Positions 222-53,900 of a stretch of DNA of 64,000 bases are shown here, piece by piece (the first letter of the stretch is position 1; every line of letters begins with the position of its first letter). Position numbers and translations under genes: made by a program. The stretch spans positions 360,001-424,000 of the forward strand of contig CAJHZI010000737.1 in the NCBI GenBank assembly GCA_905160935.1, read 5' to 3'. Below the pieces are notes generated by a model that saw nothing but the letters and a program-made list of their open reading frames with translations, was not told where the DNA came from and did no database searches. Source of the stretch: Enchytraeus crypticus (lineage: Eukaryota; Annelida; Clitellata; Enchytraeida; Enchytraeidae).

Positions 222-3200
222 ACGTCTGGGTACTTCCTATGTTGCTGCTACTTTGGGTGCCACGGGCACGGCCTTGGGTTTAAATAGAGTGGTGAAGGTA
301 AATCAGGTTTTACTTTACTCCTATGTATTTACCCTATGTATTTACTCTATGTATTGATTCTATGTATTTACTCTATGTATTAACTCCATGTATTTACTCT
401 ATGTATTTACTTTATGTATTTACTCTATGTATTTACTCCAGGTATTTATTTACTCTATGTATTTACTTTTATGTATTTACTCTATGTATAACTTTGTATA
501 TATTCTATGTATTTACTCTATGTATTTACTCTATGTATTTACTCTATGTATTTACTCTATGTATTTACTCTATGTATAACATTGTATATACTCTATGTAT
601 TTACTCTATGTATTTACTCTATGTATAACATTGTATATACTCTATGTATTTACTCTATGTATTTACTCTATGTATTGCTCACTAGCTGTGAATGTGTGCA
701 ATACACCAGGATAGTTTTACATGTCTATTCAACTGTATCACATACTGTAGCAATTAGCTGCAGAACTGAGTGCTAATGTGCAGTGAATATCTTTAAATAT
801 AAATAAATATTAATCTTTTACAATGCAATATTCATATTTTGAATATTGTTACCTTTGCCCACAAATAATTGTAATGTTCCAATTTTCTTGTAGGGCTTAG
901 TTTTTGTTGATAGTTGCTGTTAATAGTTGTTGTTAATGGTTGTTGTTAATAGTTTTGTTAATAATTTTTGTTAATAGTTTTCTGGTGATAGTTTTTATTA
1001 GGTTTTGTATATTTTTATTCCCTGATTATTGGATTTGCCATTTGAACATATTGTGAATTAGAAATGTAAAATATTGCCTGCTTTGAAATCTCTAAATGTG
1101 CTGAATATTGAACATATATGATTTTTTATATGGATTATTCGTACAGTCGATGCCACCCCTGGTGGGACGCTACGTACCGTTTGCTGCTGTTGTAGCAGCC
1201 AACTGCATCAATATACCATGCATGAGGAGCCGGTATGTGATTCTACTGCTGTCCAAGTTATTCAATTGAATCAAATCATTTTAGCGCAAACCCGTTCAGG
1301 TCCATATAAATCATCATATTGCCTTAAATCCCAGTTTAATCAGGGTCGGGATACGAATATACTTTCTCCAGTGCTCTCTGTCCCACACCATATCATAAGT
1401 CAATCCCTATTTTTCATGTCCTTCTTAATTACCGCATCCCACGTCAACTGTGGTCTACTTCTCTCTAGTTTAACATCCAGCTCTTCCCTCCAAACTCTTT
1501 ACTACATCCTCGTCTGCCTTTCTCACAATATACCCATACCATCTCAGTCTCGACTGAGCCAACCGATCCCCGATCCCCGATCCCCTCAACATTAAAATTC
1601 ATCCTCACATATTAAATATGGACATACAGATTGATATAAAAAAGGAAAAAAGAAACTAACAAGAAAATGTAATGAACAGTATGGAGGAAAATCTTACAAG
1701 CAACTGTGTAGTTATAAAATAAAATATATTATTATTATATTATATTAATATATTATTATTATATTATATTAATATATTATTATTATATTATATTAATATA
1801 TTATTATTATATTATATTAATATATTATTATTATATTATATTAATATATTATTATTATATTATATTAATATATTATTTATTATATTATATTAATATATTA
1901 TTATTATATTATATTAATATATTATTATTATATTATATTAATATATTATTATTATATTATATTAATATATTATTATTATATTATATTAATATATTATTAT
2001 TATATTATATTAATATATTATTATTATATTATATTAATATATTATTTATTATATTATATTAATATATTATTATTATATTATATTAATATATTATTATTAT
2101 ATTATATTAATATATTATTATTATATTATATTAATATATTATTATTATATTATATTAATATATTATTATTATATTATATTAATATATTATTTATTATATT
2201 ATATTAATATATTATTATTATATTATATTAATATATTATTATTATATTATATTAATATATTATTATTATATTATATTAATATATTATTATTATATTATAT
2301 TAATATATTATTATTATATTATATTAATATATTATTTATTATTAATTTTGATCTACAAAATCTTTTGGTTATTTGCCGATAATATATTACATTTTGTCAA
2401 ATTTATAGTCAAAGACAACTGAAAGTAAAGGCAAATGCATGGTAAACAATTTCAAACTATTAGAGATGTTAATAATTGAAAACGGTAATAAAATGCATGT
2501 GAGTACAGTTGTATGAGGTTAGAAGGGTTGCATCCTAAAGTTTAAGTGGCAGTTTATGATTTGAGTGTTGATGGTATTTTGCAGAACTGACAATGTAGTG
2601 CATGCAGATAAGAACGATTGATAGATGGAGTTTCTGATGATTGATACATTGATATCAAGATTATATAATACTGACTTTTATCATTGCAGACAGAAGAAGA
2701 GATGATGGTACAGTGAAACAGAATGATTTCCTGATTGATTTATTAATAATAATAATAATAATAATAAAGGTTTGGCGTCCGTTTTCTCATCCAGGGATGA
2801 TGTCAGGGACGTCCCCAACAGCACACATTACTACAGATCAATTCACCCAGACCAATCTGCAAAAGAAATGTGCTGAGAAGTAAGGTCCTAAACGAAAGCC
2901 AGTCCGGTGATCAAAAATGGTCAGGGTAGATTGATTATGCCTGTGGTGGGAAAAGGTAAGTCTTAAGCTTAATGGTAAAGAGTTTTAGAATGATTTCCTG
3001 ATTGATTTACTGATTAAAGAGTTTTAAATTTATATCCTGATTGACACACTGGTTGGAGAGTTTTAGAACGATTTCATAATTTATTGATTGGAGAGTTAAA
3101 TGGAGTAATTAAATGACTGATTGATATATTTATTGATCGATCAGAGAGTTAACTCATGGAATATCGATACAGACAGAGGAGGGAGAGAAGGTCGGCCAAT

Positions 3201-6200
3201 CAACTAAGGCTGCTCAGAGAGCTATCAGTCAGGTCGTCATATCTAGAGTTGTCATGGCCACGCCTATCATGGGTTTGTAGCTGTCAATCAAAGCTGCTCA
3301 GATAGCTATCAGTCAGGTCGTCATATCTAGAGTTGTCATGGCTACGCCTATCATGGGTTTGTAGCTGTCAATCAAAGCTGCTCAAAGAGCTATCAGTCAG
3401 GTCGTCATATCTAGAGTTGTCATGGCCACGCCTATCATGGGTTTGTAGCTGTCAATCAAAGCTGCTCAGATAGCTATCAGTCAGGTCGTCATATCTAGAG
3501 TTGTCATGGCCACGCCTATCATGGGTTTGTAGCTGTCAATCAAAGCTGCTCAATAGCTATCAGTCAGGTCGTCATATCTAGAGTTGTCATGGCCACGCCT
3601 ATCATGGGTTTGTAGCTGTCAATCAAAGCTGCTCAGATAGCTATCAGTCAGGTCGTCATATCTAGAGTTGTCATGGCCACGCCTATCATGGGTTTGTAGC
3701 TGTCAATCAATTGTAGCAGCATTGCGAGCAATCAGTTTAAGTCATCCTCTCTAAAGTTGCCTATGCCGCGCCTACTTTTAAATTTTCTTATTGTAGGTTA
3801 GCCTTGTTTTTTAAACTAATATGTTGCTATTTTTTGGATAGATTAAATTTATTTTTAATTCTATAACATGATGAAGTAGAAGCATTGTACATAAAAATGT
3901 TTTAACCATGACGAGCAAATAACAGAACGCTATTCAATTCTTCTTATTTCATATCATCTTCTATATTTTACCTTCAGTGCTGCCTCCACTGGTGATGTCG
4001 CGTTTAGAGAAAGGGGCTTTCCTAAAGGTTTGAATATTTTATTCGATTGACTTCCGTGCCTGATGTCTTTTTTCAAATAAAAGAACAATTTGAAATGCGA
4101 CACGCAGTCGCCGTGGTCTGGTAGTTCCAACATATTAAAATGTGTTGGAGTACCAAGTAGCAAGTTGGGGTAGGATATGAATATGTAAATATGTAGGTTA
4201 CTAGTTAAGTTAGTAACTCATATGGCATGATGACATTAAGCTCACTGTCAATATAATATATTCATTGTTACCTTAATTTCAATCCTTTGTATCATGCTAT
4301 CTTTCTATTTGAGGTATTACAATAATTTATATATAAATGTTATTATTGTTATATTTGCTATTTGTGTAATTATTTGCTTCAAGGCATATATTCAGTTATT
4401 CATATTCTCAATTATCAAACTACTTTCTTGAATTTCCGGTGGAACAAGGCGGTATCTCGTTTGCAAAGGCATGAAAAAGACACAAAAAATTGTAACTTAT
4501 TAGATGTTAGATGTAGCGAATACTCAACGATGTTATTTTACCATAAATATGTTTTTGATACTCTGAGGTTAAGTAAAATCCTGTAAGCTGAAAAAATTGA
4601 AGGGATTAATATACAATACATGTAGGGGTGATTGTATAATAATATAAAATAATTATTACTGTAATATAATAATTACTGAAGTTATTCTAAATAAAAAGAA
4701 TTTGAACTGCTGCTATGATGCAATTTTAGATTGCGGTTAAGCTTGTCTCTTCATTTTTATATATGTCTGTTTAATTTCAATTCTCTCACTCTCTGATCTT
4801 TATTTGTAATGCAAACAACAACTAGAGTGCTGCTGTCGTCCATGACAACATCGAGCACTATTGAAACAAATTCAAGCCGGTAACAAAATGAATGTCTGAA
4901 ATGGTGCAAATTCCAAAATCCAAAATATCAATCCAAAGATAAAGGAAATTAATGAAAGGGAGGTTTGCATGTACTTTATTATTTTAATTTATTAATTTAA
5001 TTAATTCTATTTAATTTGAAAACTGTGAGCCACTATTTTATTTAATACAATGTAATTAAAGATTTATTCGAGATGATTCGGTGTCGTGGCGAATGTAATG
5101 ACGCGGAATTATGTTCAGATGCGGTGTGACTGTTTCATTATTTCAGAGATACCCGATAATGAATTCTCCCATACAGATGGGACTTGTGGGACTACTGTGA
5201 GTTTTACTGTCTTAATTCTTTATTGTTTGACCATATTTATCTATCTCTCTCTCTCTTAGTGCATTCCCACTGGCAGGTCCGTAGTATATAACGCCTCCAT
5301 TCATCTCTATCTTCCGTTCTCCTCTTCATATACGAGTGGAACTTTAAATCATCTGTAACATTCCTTTTTATATACCACTGTACTTGGGGATTCTGCGTAT
5401 GACAAGGTGGGCCCCCTGTGCCTTCCTCAGCTGCGACTAACGTTTACTGAGCTGGGGCGTCATTCCAGACAAACCTGTTTAACTATATATCCATGTATCA
5501 ATTTATCTATATTATGTCTCAATAGCTCAGTGGATATAGTTTTTCAGGTAACGTTGAAGTTTTAATTGACAAATTCTGAGCTGATCTGAGAGTAAAATCT
5601 CGAACATTCACGAGACTGGTTACGCGAAGAGTGGACTAAATTTCCTAATGGCTTATATACGTAGTATTAAAAGTGAAAGATATCAACATAGTTGATCAAT
5701 ATTAACATGAAACAATTACATTTTTTTACCGTGAACTGGTTTCAATTTAATTGTAGCATTTATGGGCATGCGTCAGAGCCTTCGGGCCTGTAGGCCTAGG
5801 GCCATTTTTCGCGTCTTTCTATCTATGGTGTACAGTGTCATTGTGATTTTCGTGAAAATATCTATATATCTATCATTTTTCCATACTGATATTATTATTA
5901 TTATTAATGAATTTTATCTCTTAATGTTTTTTTATATAACTTAATTTAATGGCAGGTCCATGGCATATAACGTCTCAACTTTATCTGATTTCTGTTTTCT
6001 TCGTCATGTCCTTATATGACCAGATCATTAAATCATTTAACATTCGTTTTCTCGGTATGCCTCTGCTTCTCTTTTTTTCATTCTACCTTCTATAACCTAT
6101 TTTAATAAATTTTAACTATCGCCCATTAGCATTGTGTTCTATTCCTAGTCCTTAGAGTGTCCTGCAGCCGAGGCTTCTGTTAGGTATTATTTTAGGTATG

Positions 6201-8002
6201 GTGAATCGATTTGTTGTGACATGTGATGGGGGGACGTCCCTTACATCATCCTTGTATGAGGAAACGGACGTTAAACCTTTATTATTATTATTATTATTAT
6301 TATTAAGTTTTCTCATACACTGACACTACTGAATTGTGTTGTTGTTGCTCTACGTAGTCTGGTATTTGCTACACCAATGTGCTGCGCTCTTTTTCCACAA
6401 ATGAGGTTAGACTTCATGTCTCTACAGTTTTGTCTCTGTAGTTTTGTCTCTACAGTTTTGTCTCTACAGTTTTGTCTCTACAGTTTTATCTCTACAGTTT
6501 TGTCTCAACAGTTTTGTGTCTACAGTTTTGTCTCTATAGTTTTGTCTCTACAGTTTTATCTCTACAGTTTTGTCTCTACAGTTTATCACGTTAAGTCGTG
6601 TTAAGACAGTAAAGGATACTGCTCGATTCTGAACGCGTGTTGCAAGAGCTAACTGACTCCACTGCAGAGAAAAACAGTGGCAAACTACCTCAGAAATTTT
6701 ACTGTGAAAAAGCAACAATTAAATTAATGTAGTGACCCATTGTTGAACTGTTGTTTTGTTTCTAATTAGATTTAGATTTTATTTCTTATTATATTTTCTG
6801 AAACATTACGTTTAGTTTTGGCATTTCACTTTTACTGCATACTATACCTACATATATATAGAATTATTGATATTTTAGTATTTGTATGACTGTCTTACGT
6901 AGTTTTTGTTTCTCTAACTAGTTCACCGAATAAATGGAATATGCTATCAGTCTGTTGAAACCATTCCGTGATTTCGTTTGTTTCTAAAATTACTTTATGG
7001 ATTCTGAATCTAAAATCTTCAGCTTCTACTATTGTACCCGTGCAATCAAGCTATGTATCTATTTAATGTTACATAAGTATAACAGGCTGAATGATACGGC
7101 CCTAAGATATGGCATGAAGATTAATATAAAAAAGACCAAGGTTATGAGAGTGTCCAATAATAAAGGTGAAGTTAATATCACAATAAATGGTACGAAATTG
7201 GAACAGGTAAGGAGTTTCAAATATTTAGGTCGTACTGTAACCGATGATGGAAAATGTGAGACGGAAATATGTAGTAGGATTGTACAAGCAAAAGCGGCTT
7301 TTGGTAGTAGAAAAGAACTATTAACAAAAAGTCTAAAGAAAGACACAAAGATAAAGATAGTGAAAACTTTGGTTTGGACCACGCTATTGTATGGAGGTGA
7401 AACATGGACCTTAAGGAAGGAAGATATTAGGAAAATGGAGGCATTGGAAATGTGGATTTGGAAAAGAATGGAGAGGATTAGCTGGACTCAAAAGGTTACA
7501 AATGAGGAAGTCCTGGAGAGAGTTGGCACAGATAGACAGTTGATAAATGTATTAAGAAATAGGAAGAAGAGATGGATAGGACACATTCTAAGGGGGGAAG
7601 GTCTATTAAAAGAGGTCATAGAAGGTAGAATGGAAGAAAAAGAGGCAGGGGCTGGCCGAGATTAGGTATGTTAGATGATTTAAAGACCCACTCATATGTG
7701 GAAATGAAGAGGAAGGCAGAAGACAAGAGAAGAGTGGAGGCGTTATGTACCATGGACCTGCCAGTAGGCAGTGCACTAAGAGAGAGAGAGAGAAGTATAA
7801 CAGCCACCGTTACGACCATTAACACGCAAATGAAAGAATTACTTATCATTTATGAAATTAATAATTATTTATTTGTTATAAAGACATATGAATATGTATT
7901 TATTTTTGTAGTTCGATGTCAGTTGATAGTTTAGAGGCGGGGCTTCAGGAGAAATTGAAGGCTAGGAATATATCTCGTGTGTATTACAACAAGGGACTCT
8001 AA
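222..8002 (+). CDS. SFXN1: Sideroflexin (SFXN1/3-like), 3' part of gene, seven exons
   Basis: Sideroflexins are multipass inner mitochondrial membrane proteins; SFXN1/3 import serine for one-carbon metabolism (family knowledge). Exons: 222-297, 1147-1232, 3145-3272, 3978-4027, 5147-5196, 6358-6405, 7912-8002 (stop TAA at 8000-8002). The phases join without a break. Translated blocks in order match the family: [20 protein letters not shown], then [103 protein letters not shown] and the terminus [14 protein letters not shown]...VYYNKGL. About 175 residues are visible, roughly the C-terminal half of a protein of about 320 aa; the first exons lie before position 1. All introns are GT-AG. Odd points: exon 3 has been tandemly copied into the following intron, the terminal exon is duplicated after the stop, and a LINE sits in the last intron. 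The match is strong; the choice between SFXN1 and SFXN3 is not. Confidence 0.93.
312..678. repeat. 12-bp minisatellite, unit TATGTATTTACT
   Basis: About 30 copies of a 12-bp unit with scattered variants (CCAGG, TATAACATTG). Because 12 is a multiple of three, all forward frames stay open and give [10 protein letters not shown]-like translations, which are not a protein. It begins about 15 bp downstream of the sideroflexin donor at 298. Confidence 0.95.
1300..1562 (-). mobile_element. LINE-2 (RTE-like) 3' fragment: end of reverse transcriptase ORF plus tail
   Basis: Reading the minus strand gives a decayed [20 protein letters not shown], followed after breaks by a [11 protein letters not shown]-like stretch. 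This is the C-terminal pattern of RTE-like endonuclease-reverse transcriptases. The fragment ends with CGTATCCCGACCCTGATTAA and a short ATGATGAT tail. The frame is broken by stops, so it is a dead copy. Its last 95 bp or so resemble the 3' end of SINE family E. Confidence 0.65.
1722..2343. repeat. AT-only 24-bp tandem repeat with higher-order spacing
   Basis: About 26 copies of a 24-bp unit built from TATTATTATTATATTATATTA. The array is made only of A and T. A variant unit with one extra T (ATTATTTATT) recurs near 1873, 2041, 2188 and 2331, that is every six or seven units. It lies in the sideroflexin intron between exons at 1232 and 3145. Confidence 0.95.
2743..2940 (-). mobile_element. SINE family A, full-length-like copy, minus orientation
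   Basis: It starts with (AATAAT)n and then reads as the reverse complement of the copy at 63537-63765, including GGTCTGGGTGAATTGATC, ACGTCCCTGAC and GAAACGGACG...TTAAACC next to the TTA-type tail. Other copies lie at 6192, 29958, 32840, 34055 and 57310. Confidence 0.8.
3195..3716 (+). repeat. 84-bp tandem repeat made of a sideroflexin exon end and its donor
   Basis: Six copies with the same anchor (ATCTAGAGTTG) at 3241, 3325, 3409, 3493, 3576 and 3660, a spacing of 84 bp (one is 83). The first copy is the 3' two thirds of the real exon 3145-3272. The next five are intronic and repeat the coding block [17 protein letters not shown] plus the donor ATGG|GTTTGT. In frame, each copy runs into TAG directly after the donor, so read-through would end translation. 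Confidence 0.95.
4813..4945 (+). mobile_element. SINE-like repeat family F
   Basis: Shares AGAGTGCTGC, CATGACAACATCGAGC, CAAGCCGG and GTGCAAATTCCAAAATCC with copies at 60435-60570 and 61075-61215, and in reverse with 17760-17930. Function and class are not recognised. Confidence 0.6.
5245..5482 (-). mobile_element. Composite LINE-1-tailed retroposon, minus orientation
   Basis: It begins with (CT)n and TTAGTGCA, the reverse of the LINE-1 tail ACTGCCAGTAGGCAGTGCACTAA type sequence, then shows the head seen at 1-170. It sits in the sideroflexin intron after the exon ending at 5196. Confidence 0.65.
5513..5702 (+). mobile_element. SINE family D, diverged copy
   Basis: Contains TGTCTCAATAGC, GAGCTGATCTGAGAG, AAATCTCGAACATTCAC and AAAGATATCAACATAGTTGA in the order seen in the better copies at 15921 and 44147. 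The B-box region is deleted. Confidence 0.55.
5945..6095 (-). mobile_element. LINE-1 3' tail fragment, minus orientation
   Basis: Carries TGGCAGGTCCATGGCATA and the following blocks that match the reverse complement of the LINE-1 end at 7690-7780. Diverged and short. Confidence 0.5.
6192..6305 (+). mobile_element. SINE family A, 5'-truncated copy
   Basis: Reads GGTGAATCGATTTGTTGTGA, GGGACGTCCCTTACATCATC and GAGGAAACGGACGTTAAACC, followed by (TTA)n. It lies just upstream of the sideroflexin exon at 6358. Confidence 0.75.
6418..6592. repeat. 14-bp minisatellite, unit GTCTCTACAGTTTT
   Basis: About twelve copies beginning 12 bp after the sideroflexin donor at 6406. Every unit reads TTTTGTCTCTACAG, which looks like a polypyrimidine tract plus CAG acceptor. 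Confidence 0.93.
7065..7797 (+). mobile_element. LINE-1 (RTE-like) 3' fragment with reverse transcriptase C-terminus
   Basis: An open frame of about 195 codons gives [59 protein letters not shown] and [20 protein letters not shown]. These are the thumb and C-terminal patterns of RTE-like non-LTR reverse transcriptases. The catalytic domain and endonuclease are absent. The frame shifts near 7640, in an A-rich run, into a second frame reading [20 protein letters not shown] and then [14 protein letters not shown]. The element ends in (GA)n at 7779-7797. It is a 5'-truncated dead copy in the last sideroflexin intron. Other fragments of the same end lie at 5945, 30325, 40125, 52620-53400 and 58500. 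Confidence 0.85.
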
Positions 8003-8103
8003 GCAGAGCTGATAGTTTAGAGGCGGGGCTTCAGGAGAAATTGGAGGCTAAGAATATGTCTCTTGAATATTACGACAAGGGTCTCCAAGCAGAGCTCTGC
8101 TAA
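8003..8103 (+). pseudogene. Duplicate of the terminal sideroflexin exon
   Basis: Directly after the stop codon the sequence repeats the last exon: [15 protein letters not shown] followed by a diverged YYDKGL, then TAA at 8101-8103. The shared block GATAGTTTAGAGGCGGGGCT occurs at 7926 and 8009. It lies in the 3' UTR of the gene or could serve as an alternative terminal exon, but it has no acceptor of its own, so I call it a duplicated exon remnant. Confidence 0.8.
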
Positions 8104-26150: not shown

Positions 26151-26502
26151 CCCTATGCTATCACCGAGGACAATACAATTAGTAAATATACTGGTTTTGT
26201 TATTGGTTGGTGGGTGTTTTGAAGTATCTGTTCAGCAACCATAATGCAGCGGCATGCCTGGACCGTCTCGTGGGGACCGAACCGAGACCAGCTGCAGCTC
26301 CTCACCTCCATCCTCCCCAAGTTCATCCGCTCTCCTCTTCCCCCCCCCCCTTTTCCCCCCCCACCCTTGAGCACGTCACCCATAGTTTAGCTTGGTAGTA
26401 GAGCAGTGTTAAATGCCAAGGAAGAGACTCAAATCATTTTCCAATTTAGTTCTCAAATACATAATCTATTTAATTATTTCTATGAACCCCTGGTGAGGGT
26501 TG

Positions 26503-26692
26503 TGATGAGCCGATCCCGGAGGTACTGCAATACCGGGCCAACCCGCGGTCAAGCCGGAGCAAGCCCCTGAGTCTTAACCATGTTCCAAAAATCAGTTTAA
26601 TATCGAAGTTCCCCGATGGGGAACGTATCAGATATTAAGCTGATAAGAACAGATACTACACTTTGATCTTAGCCAAAAGGCCGAGAAGCGAT
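26503..26692 (-). ncRNA. RNU2: U2 spliceosomal snRNA
   Basis: Read on the minus strand, the gene starts at 26692 with ATCGCTTCTCGGCCTTTTGG, then CTAAGATCAAAGTGTAGTAT, which contains the GUAGUA branch-point recognition sequence. CTGATACGTTCCCC/GGGGAAC follows as stem-loop IIb, GATTTTTGGAA as the Sm site region, GGGGCTTGCTCC as stem-loop III, and CCCGGTATTGCAGTACCTCC as stem-loop IV. The order and length (about 190 nt) fit the family. The AUCAAAGUG form, with one more A than the vertebrate RNA, is the form I know from insects. The stems look intact, so it may be functional; the 3' end is placed by analogy, 12 nt after stem IV. Confidence 0.95.
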
Positions 26693-28923: not shown

Positions 28924-43524
<14,601 letters not shown>

Positions 43525-50900: not shown

Positions 50901-53900
50901 CTTTCAGGCCTCGTAGTTTCGGTAAAGTTTTTTGAGGGGTGAGCCTCGAAATATAGAATTTAATTTTCTGGTTTAAAATCCGGATCAATCTATACATCTC
51001 AACTACAAAGCCCACGGGAAGAGGTGCCTGGCGTCAATAATTGCACCTTAGAACGAAGCAATGGTACAGCTAGTCATTTAGAGAAGAGATTACAAAATCA
51101 TAAATACGAAAACAACCTGAGAACATTTATAAACATAAAGGTCTAACGTGGACAACAGGATTGTTTTCTCAGGGAATGACGCATCAGAATGTTAGTCGAA
51201 GGTGAGGAAGGCATAGGAAGCCCACCTCGTCATAAACAGAATTTCCCAAGAAAAAATAAATAAATATATATATATATCAAAAGGAATGTTATAGGCGATT
51301 TAAAGATCCACACGTAGGTGGACATGAAGAGGAATGCGTAACACAGAGAAGAGTGGAGGCGTTATATACCATGGGCCTGCCAGTAGGCAGTGCAAGAGAA
51401 ATAGAGAGAAAAATATATGTGTTTATTTCAGCATTAACACCAAATCACTGACTAATACAAACAGAAAAAACATTTAAAGGAAATAAAATTTCAATAAAAT
51501 ATCCAAGAAAAACAGGGTATCAAACAGTCTGTAAAAACTAGAACAACGGCCGTCAGGGATGATACACATCTTATCTAGCTGACCACCGTCTATAACTACT
51601 GTAACTATTATAGAGATAGGTCTAGCACAGTTGAACTGACCTGTGCAAGCACCCGGTGCGAGGGTGGATAGAGCGAAGCCTGGGCGACAAGCACAGGTAT
51701 AGCTGCCTCTAGTGTTAATACATAGCTGACTACACCCGTGGTACACAGTCTTACATTCGTTCAAATCTACAAAAAACAGTATCAGAGCTGGTAAAGTTAA
51801 TGTTAACGTCAGTTTCCTCACTCGAAAGCGATGTCAGTGACGGAGGAGTCTAGGATTTGAACCCCGCACATACTATTCCGCTGTCGAATATCTTACCGAC
51901 ATCGCCACTGGCTACAGCTAGCTACAATATAACCACAAACGGATTCAAATCGATCAGTCTATCGCTGTTGTTTATATCATTTTCTAAATCCAAGTGAGTA
52001 AGAAGGGATAATAATTGATTTAGGTAGGATTAGGTAGTGCTATTTACTGAGGATTAGGTGAAGCTACTTACTGAGGATTAGGTGAAGCTACTTACTGAGG
52101 ATTAGGTGAAGCTACTTACTGAGGATTAGGTGAAGCTACTTACTGAGGATTAGGTGAAGCTACTTACTGAATGTAGGCCTAGTTATGAAAAGTAGTCCGC
52201 AATTCAAACTAAGTTAAGATTTGGCTAAAACAGCTTTCATGTGAATAGTGAACTTGATCAGCGTTTTGATTTCCTATTTAGACCTGTCTGTATCGACCCC
52301 GTGAAATAGAACATAACGGCACGTTACAAGGCAGTTATTTAAATCAGTATTTTAATTGCGTATTCCCCATTTACAGAAACCCATCCATGGGAATTCAAAC
52401 AAAACTAATGAGCAAAAAGGCTTCTGCAACAGAACTTTCCAATACTTGTGTTTGCTTTAGGGTCGCGTGTCCCCAATACAGGCATTTGAGGATGCTTTAA
52501 GGTCTCGTGATCAAAATAGGCTAACACATTGCATTATGTCTAAGCATTGGTATTAATTATTTCATTCTGTTGAATAAGTCAGCCTAGCATCGTCTTGTCT
52601 AGAGGAATCTGGATGGGCAGACGAACAATCGTTACTGTTTCTACATTGTAAGCTATAAGTGATTAGAAATAGAAGTGGGATAGGACATATTATAAGAGTT
52701 GATGGTTTGCTACATAGATAAAAAACGTCCTTACCAAAAATAAAAAATGTTAAAAGACGCGTTTTAAAAAAAAATAAAAAACGTAAAAAACGTTGAAAAA
52801 AAAACGTTAGTAGCGTACACGTAGGCTTGCATATATATTACAACGCCTTCATTCCATAACACTAAACAATTTTATTACAACAAGACTTGATCTAAAGTTC
52901 TAAAGTATGTCCATAGACTCCATACAAATATAAACAAATACTTTCAGGTCACATACAGCCACACTGTCAGTTGTTCATAATTATCAATACAAGAAAATTT
53001 AAATCCGTAAGAAATTAAGAATAGACAATGTCTTAAAATTAGAGCATCTGCCTAACTAGGAAAATAAAAAATGTTATGAATTACCTTTTATATAGTGATG
53101 TTTACGTTTACGGTTTACGTTTTTTTATTTTATAAAAAATAAAAAACGTAAAAGAATAGCGTTTTTTAACAGATATAAAAAAAGTAAAACGACGTTTTTT
53201 TCATCTATGGTTTTCTAAAAGATGTAATAAAAGGTGAATGCAAAGGAAAAGAGCTAACGGAAGACCGAGACATGGGATGTTGGATGATCTGATAACAAAT
53301 TCATATATAGAGATGAAAAGAACGACTGCGTATAGAATTGGTTGGAAGAGCTAAATACCATGGACCTGCCGTTAGGCAGTGCACTAGAAGAATAAGAAGA
53401 TTGTAAGTTAATATTTCTTACCCACGCAGGTTCCTGGAGGAACCAGCCTGAAACCATGACGACAGGCACAGAGGTAGCTTCCCATTGTGTTCACACACTC
53501 TTGCTCACAGATCGCTCCCTGAGCTCCGCGCATATCTGAGCACTCATCAACGTCTGCTCTCAACACAGCATAGCAATGCTACTCACTGAGTGTTCTTAAA
53601 GAAAAAATAAACTAATATAATTAATTTACATAATAAAGAATATATAAATATCCCCGTATATATAAATATCAAGGCGACTAAAGCACTAAGATCCATACCA
53701 ACGTCAGAAAGGGCATCCGGTTGGTGAGCGCCTAGGCTCCAGAAATTGCCACAAAATTTAAACTAAACGAATGGAATGTCTCAAACAGGGGATTGACTGA
53801 TGATATGATGCAGGACAGAGAGAGTTTGAGTCTATTCGTGTCCCGACCCTAGTTGAACTGGGATTCAAGGGAAGATGATGATGAGTAAAGATTAAGTAAT

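Follow-up and report, generated by a model that had tools for sequence, protein, structure and literature searches.

We analysed a window of 64,000 nucleotides (nt) from the annelid Enchytraeus crypticus (assembly GCA_905160935.1, contig CAJHZI010000737.1, positions 360,001 to 424,000, forward strand), in which the end of one sideroflexin exon is repeated six times together with the splice donor behind it. The array is very likely a neutral "mirage", as minisatellites spanning exon/intron boundaries have been called in amphioxus (PMC3087553, PMC3902484, as far as their accessible text goes). It would be a by-product of an annelid genome prone to tandem duplication, putatively spliced from its first donor, and probably has no function of its own.

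The sideroflexin gene of the window comprises seven exons on the + strand, running to the stop codon. Exon edges were set by reading and then checked by translation. For exon (a), the assignment relies on the reading frame, splice sites set by reading and the family match of the joined exons. The protein joined by hand from the seven exons is free of internal stops and matches PF03820 (E 1.7e-61; 208.3 bits against a curated cut-off of 22) over profile positions 142-319 of 319. The 5 kb upstream of the window consist of N, and any earlier sideroflexin exons would fall there.

222..297, + strand: sideroflexin exon (a)
1147..1232, + strand: sideroflexin exon (b)
3145..3272, + strand: sideroflexin exon (c), the exon whose end is amplified, 128 nt, with donor 1 at 3273
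3978..4027, + strand: sideroflexin exon (d)
5147..5196, + strand: sideroflexin exon (e)
6358..6405, + strand: sideroflexin exon (f)
7912..8002, + strand: sideroflexin terminal exon (g), with TAA stop

Tandem Repeats Finder (TRF) revealed an array at 3209-3710 (period 84, 6.0 copies, 97% matches, score 969). Read unit by unit, it covers 3209-3711 and consists of six head-to-tail units, five of 84 bp and one of 83 bp. Every unit holds the last 64 nt of exon (c), the donor ATGG/GTTTGT and 20 nt of intron, and so straddles the splice site. The units differ pairwise at 1-3 of 84 positions, and the donor is identical in all six. Intact exon (c) stands at the 5' end of the array, in frame with the family and with a paralogue described below, and all copies lie past donor 1. 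A preliminary description of this stretch had placed the six copies and the donor at 3273 correctly. It had rightly taken the unit to be exon-derived and to hold a donor, the first copy to be the real exon (in frame and matching the family) and the other five to carry the same donor. Its count of six 84-bp copies holds as to six units; the fifth is 83 bp long, and a degenerate seventh copy had been overlooked. A search with the 508-bp array, which was limited to scoring the top candidates and passed over very frequent words, detected one matching place in the 524-Mb assembly (524,188,772 bases in 802 contigs; GC content of the window, 35.0%). Contig C802 of this assembly (15,205 bases) is a mitochondrial genome, with COX1 recognised by profile and its other genes named by eye from open frames; the large genes share one strand, in an order like that of Lumbricus, and on the alignment AGR was judged by eye to encode Ser, AAA Lys and ATA Met. 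This annelid match led us to set aside amphioxus as a source of the DNA.

3209..3292, + strand: unit 1, 64 nt from the end of exon (c) plus 20 intronic nt, donor at 3273
3293..3376, + strand: unit 2, donor copy at 3357
3377..3460, + strand: unit 3, donor copy at 3441
3461..3544, + strand: unit 4, donor copy at 3525
3545..3627, + strand: unit 5, 83 bp, donor copy at 3608
3628..3711, + strand: unit 6, donor copy at 3692
3700..3774, + strand: degenerate copy 7, with homology to exon (c) 3193-3266; an indel puts it out of frame
3278..3280, + strand: in-frame TAG that would be reached from donors 2-6 (scripted exon joining)

Scripted joining of the exons showed that the frame is kept by donor 1 only. 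Donors 2-6, which would give exons of 212-547 nt, all lead into the TAG at 3278-3280, as had been foreseen for any donor but the first. This TAG and the 83-bp unit rule out an amplification of coding sequence. We also considered extra in-frame exons, with donor 1 spliced into a later copy, and found no convincing acceptor by reading. Donor 1 is most likely the one in use, because it is transcribed first and the exon it closes has a normal size. Were a later donor used now and then, the resulting transcript would stop at the TAG and its degradation would be expected. The copies would be tolerated as intronic sequence behind an intact 5' exon whose own donor is used, and may have persisted because the intact exon stays 5' and the copies sit in the intron.

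A second sideroflexin gene was found on another contig (C750), with ten exons from ATG to stop. The two genes have the same residue at 143 of 176 shared codons, stop included; of the 75 fourfold sites they share, 55 differ. All seven window exons equal their C750 counterparts in length, so the intron behind exon (c) is old. The C750 gene carries arrays with other units at its first-exon donor, second-exon acceptor and donor, and third-exon acceptor; the last of these has a 56-nt unit in 5.6 copies, with the real exon last. Its other arrays touch or closely trail further donors and the stop codon, and fell below our threshold for boundary-spanning copies. Over both genes, with exact edges and a score of at least 20, spanning copies were detected at 3/15 donors, 2/16 acceptors and 1/2 gene ends, a count that takes in the window array. 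The latter would be one case of a tendency of this genome toward tandem arrays able to cross exon edges. The first-exon donor array of the C750 gene (locus L017, 2350-3494) is interrupted by about 0.7 kb of other sequence, which separates 2350-2551 from 3250-3494.

Six equal donors, five of which (donors 2-6) share one stop, could also be read as a poison switch, in which donors 2-6 are used, the TAG transcripts tune sideroflexin through nonsense-mediated decay and the copy number sets the dose. We regard this as very unlikely. The C750 donor homologous to that of exon (c) does lie in an array, but one whose unit differs and includes no more than 3 nt of the exon, so that the design is not shared. 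In the accessible text on amphioxus mirages, moreover, reverse-transcription polymerase chain reaction is reported to show regular splicing without interference (PMC3087553).

The degenerate seventh copy is identical to exon (c) in 53/76 aligned columns, with a local score of 23 against a maximum of 17 in 2000 dinucleotide shuffles. When the window was cut into 250-nt tiles, the tile starting at 3701, into which 11 nt from the end of unit 6 fall, scored 27, and the best tile clear of the array 16. Because exon (c) gives copy 7 a better alignment than the C750 exon does, this copy probably postdates the split of the two genes. Since this copy has decayed, the first duplication appears to be old. 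The near-identity of the six units had been attributed to recent expansion or gene conversion; given an old first duplication, it need not reflect a simply recent expansion, and homogenisation can account for it.

Copy 7 begins with 12 nt that are the end of unit 6, and is offset from that unit by 88 bp (3716 against 3628). Four bases of exon (c) at its junction are missing from the units, and the last 12 nt of the units' intron part resemble exon positions 3193-3204. Together, these features suggest one old duplication of about 88 bp, followed by the spread of a shortened unit. From unit lengths and junctions we infer that a first tandem duplication took the last 80 nt of exon (c) and 8 intronic bases, GTTTGTAG, and left what is now the decayed copy at 3700-3774. 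A unit 4 bases shorter would then have spread and been homogenised by slippage or unequal exchange, which would give near-identical copies.

Copy 7 might instead be the remnant of a formerly functional alternative to the 3' part of exon (c), beside which the array grew. Its first codons differ from the exon mostly by silent changes (by reading), and its homology reaches further 5' than the 84-bp unit. On the other hand its frame is broken, no GT stands where homology would put the donor (by reading), and its 53/76 identical columns fit neutral decay; a search for an exon-end copy in the same C750 intron found none (score 8 over 659 nt). An alternative exon is accordingly a very improbable origin of this copy. 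Copy 7 also bears on the question whether the copy number was inflated by assembly. Assembling tandem arrays is difficult in general. The published E. crypticus assembly is described, in the part accessible to us, as a MaSuRCA hybrid of PacBio and Illumina reads, to which 80.6% of the PacBio reads map back (PMC8460440). Against an artefact speak the private differences among the units and the single unit of 83 bp (in the one assembly examined), the decayed copy that flanks the array, and the boundary-spanning copies with other units elsewhere in the genome; we give it a very slight chance.

The neutral reading agrees with what the accessible parts of two papers say of amphioxus mirages (PMC3087553, PMC3902484). 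These were reported for Adh3, the globins BflGb6 and BflGb9, PGBD5 and troponin C. They have units of 10-160 bp, with splice signals in many copies, and affect 5' and 3' boundaries. Copies at the edges of the clusters escape homogenisation; length and somatic instability were described at Adh3, and two lengths in BflGb6. The window array is similarly a tandem unit across an exon/intron boundary and of minisatellite size (84 bp, 6 copies). It differs in that its host is an annelid, not a cephalochordate, and in that it is known from genome sequence alone. In further contrast to amphioxus, the E. crypticus copies were found at several edges of two paralogous genes and beside 11/94 match ends of the TCP1 family (see below).

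At the earthworm metallothionein locus Lr6F14, in another clitellate annelid, extra copies of exon 4 are said to be absent from the final transcript (PMC12783039). The available text resembles our case in having extra exon copies, but does not describe them as a boundary-spanning minisatellite. Apart from these, we found no literature report of boundary-spanning minisatellites in annelids, in a search that covered subscription literature thinly; mirages would thus be new for an annelid, though of a kind already known from lancelets. Intron gain by a duplication containing AG/GT (Rogers, as cited in the accessible part of PMC3087553) likewise begins with a duplication that includes splice signals; unlike in that process, no new intron was seen in the window gene.

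Arrays in which a splice site is repeated unchanged offer natural experiments on the way the spliceosome picks one of six equal sites, and their recurrence in an annelid used as a laboratory soil model makes this question testable far from lancelets. They may lead gene predictors to misplace exon edges in such genomes, and provide a measurable route for intron and exon change.

Exon edges in other families were analysed with TCP1 genes. From each match end a 45-nt coding probe was taken and compared with the 600 nt lying directly outside it, and a score of at least 20 was taken as positive. Of 57 matches, 50 were read and 7 were not fetched; three seemingly intronless ones (L019, L037, L038) were dropped, leaving 47. 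These come from 9 contigs, 6 of them holding positives, and are hence not independent; their ends mark the limits of profile matches and are not established splice sites. From the 282 flank probes, six were removed because they were simple repeats. Tandem copies were detected on the upstream (acceptor) side in 11/47 cases and on the downstream (donor) side in 0/47 (p 0.0005), with sides assigned by the reported strands; strands guessed from stop codons split the same 11 positives 9 and 2. Inverted probes (0/94) and mismatched pairs (0/235) served as controls. By reading, an AG lies near the edge in both the real exon and the copy of all 11 positives.

Copies were also found for flank probes, 10/139 upstream and 23/137 downstream. 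Upstream ends were above upstream flank probes (11/47 against 10/139, p 0.006), hardly above all flank probes (p 0.06) and not above downstream flank probes (11/47 against 23/137, p 0.38). Downstream ends were below the flank probes of their own side (p 0.001) and below the whole set of flank probes (p 0.007). With downstream ends below their flanks and upstream ends mixed, the lack of copies on the donor side is as well supported as the excess on the acceptor side. Direct-repeat coverage, computed with our own script, reached 0.25-0.33 around the upstream end (from 30 nt within the match to 100 nt before it) and was 0.09-0.12 at distances above 200 nt; behind the downstream end it was 0.06 over the initial 30 nt and 0.11-0.19 at greater distances.

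Pooling of sideroflexin, TCP1 and mitochondrial-carrier matches gave 13/71 upstream against 3/70 downstream (p 0.015) when sideroflexin was scored with boundary-spanning probes, 12/71 against 3/70 (p 0.026) with coding probes throughout, and 11/55 against 0/55 without the sideroflexin genes, which had prompted the acceptor/donor test. The donor-side arrays of the sideroflexin genes contradict a strict acceptor rule, and we treat an acceptor-side bias of exon-edge copies as a lead, not a result. A stronger form, in which arrays in this annelid preferentially form at 3' splice sites and take the exon start along, as a convergent genome-wide feature of annelid and lancelet, is rather unlikely. 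If true, decoy copies of acceptor plus exon would stand in front of a considerable fraction of the exons in some genes and would have to be ignored routinely during splicing, and exon-edge arrays would be raw material for new introns and exons.

Several results weigh against our interpretation of the window array. TCP1 match ends carried copies in 11/94 cases and flank probes in 33/276, so that no general enrichment at exon edges was found, and exon edges in general were not shown to be special in tandem copies by this sample. Mitochondrial-carrier matches had copies at 0/8 upstream and 0/8 downstream ends (345-nt flanks, without controls; 8 of 136 matches read, two of them with an internal stop). 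TRF arrays make up 14.5% of the window. Finally, the choice of donor 1 is a prediction from sequence.

Further repeats were observed in the window gene. One lies behind the stop codon:

8010..8096, + strand: tandem copy of most of terminal exon (g), after the stop; array 7924-8096, period 86, 89% matches (TRF)

By reading, this second copy differs from the real exon mainly by amino-acid-changing substitutions. We considered it as an alternative last exon; an in-frame AG is present (by reading), but the candidate was set aside, as most of the differences alter amino acids. Minisatellites at 314-676 and 6417-6584 start 12-17 nt past the ends of exons (a) and (f). An open frame at 6988-7662 resembles part of a long interspersed nuclear element (LINE) reverse transcriptase by reading, and had no Pfam match at E 0.01.

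Elsewhere in the window, a U2 spliceosomal RNA gene was identified at 26500-26692 on the minus strand (full-length Rfam match RF00004, 185 bits). A 24-bp repeat in six copies at 52026-52170 holds a donor-like CAGTAAGT on the minus strand, where no exon was seen to end; a calcium-binding EGF exon has its open frame about 200 bp away. At 38409-38792 (+ strand), an open frame encodes a PKK domain (PF12474, E 1.1e-15), as in STK10/SLK-type kinases, and contains a short repeat at 38498-38590.
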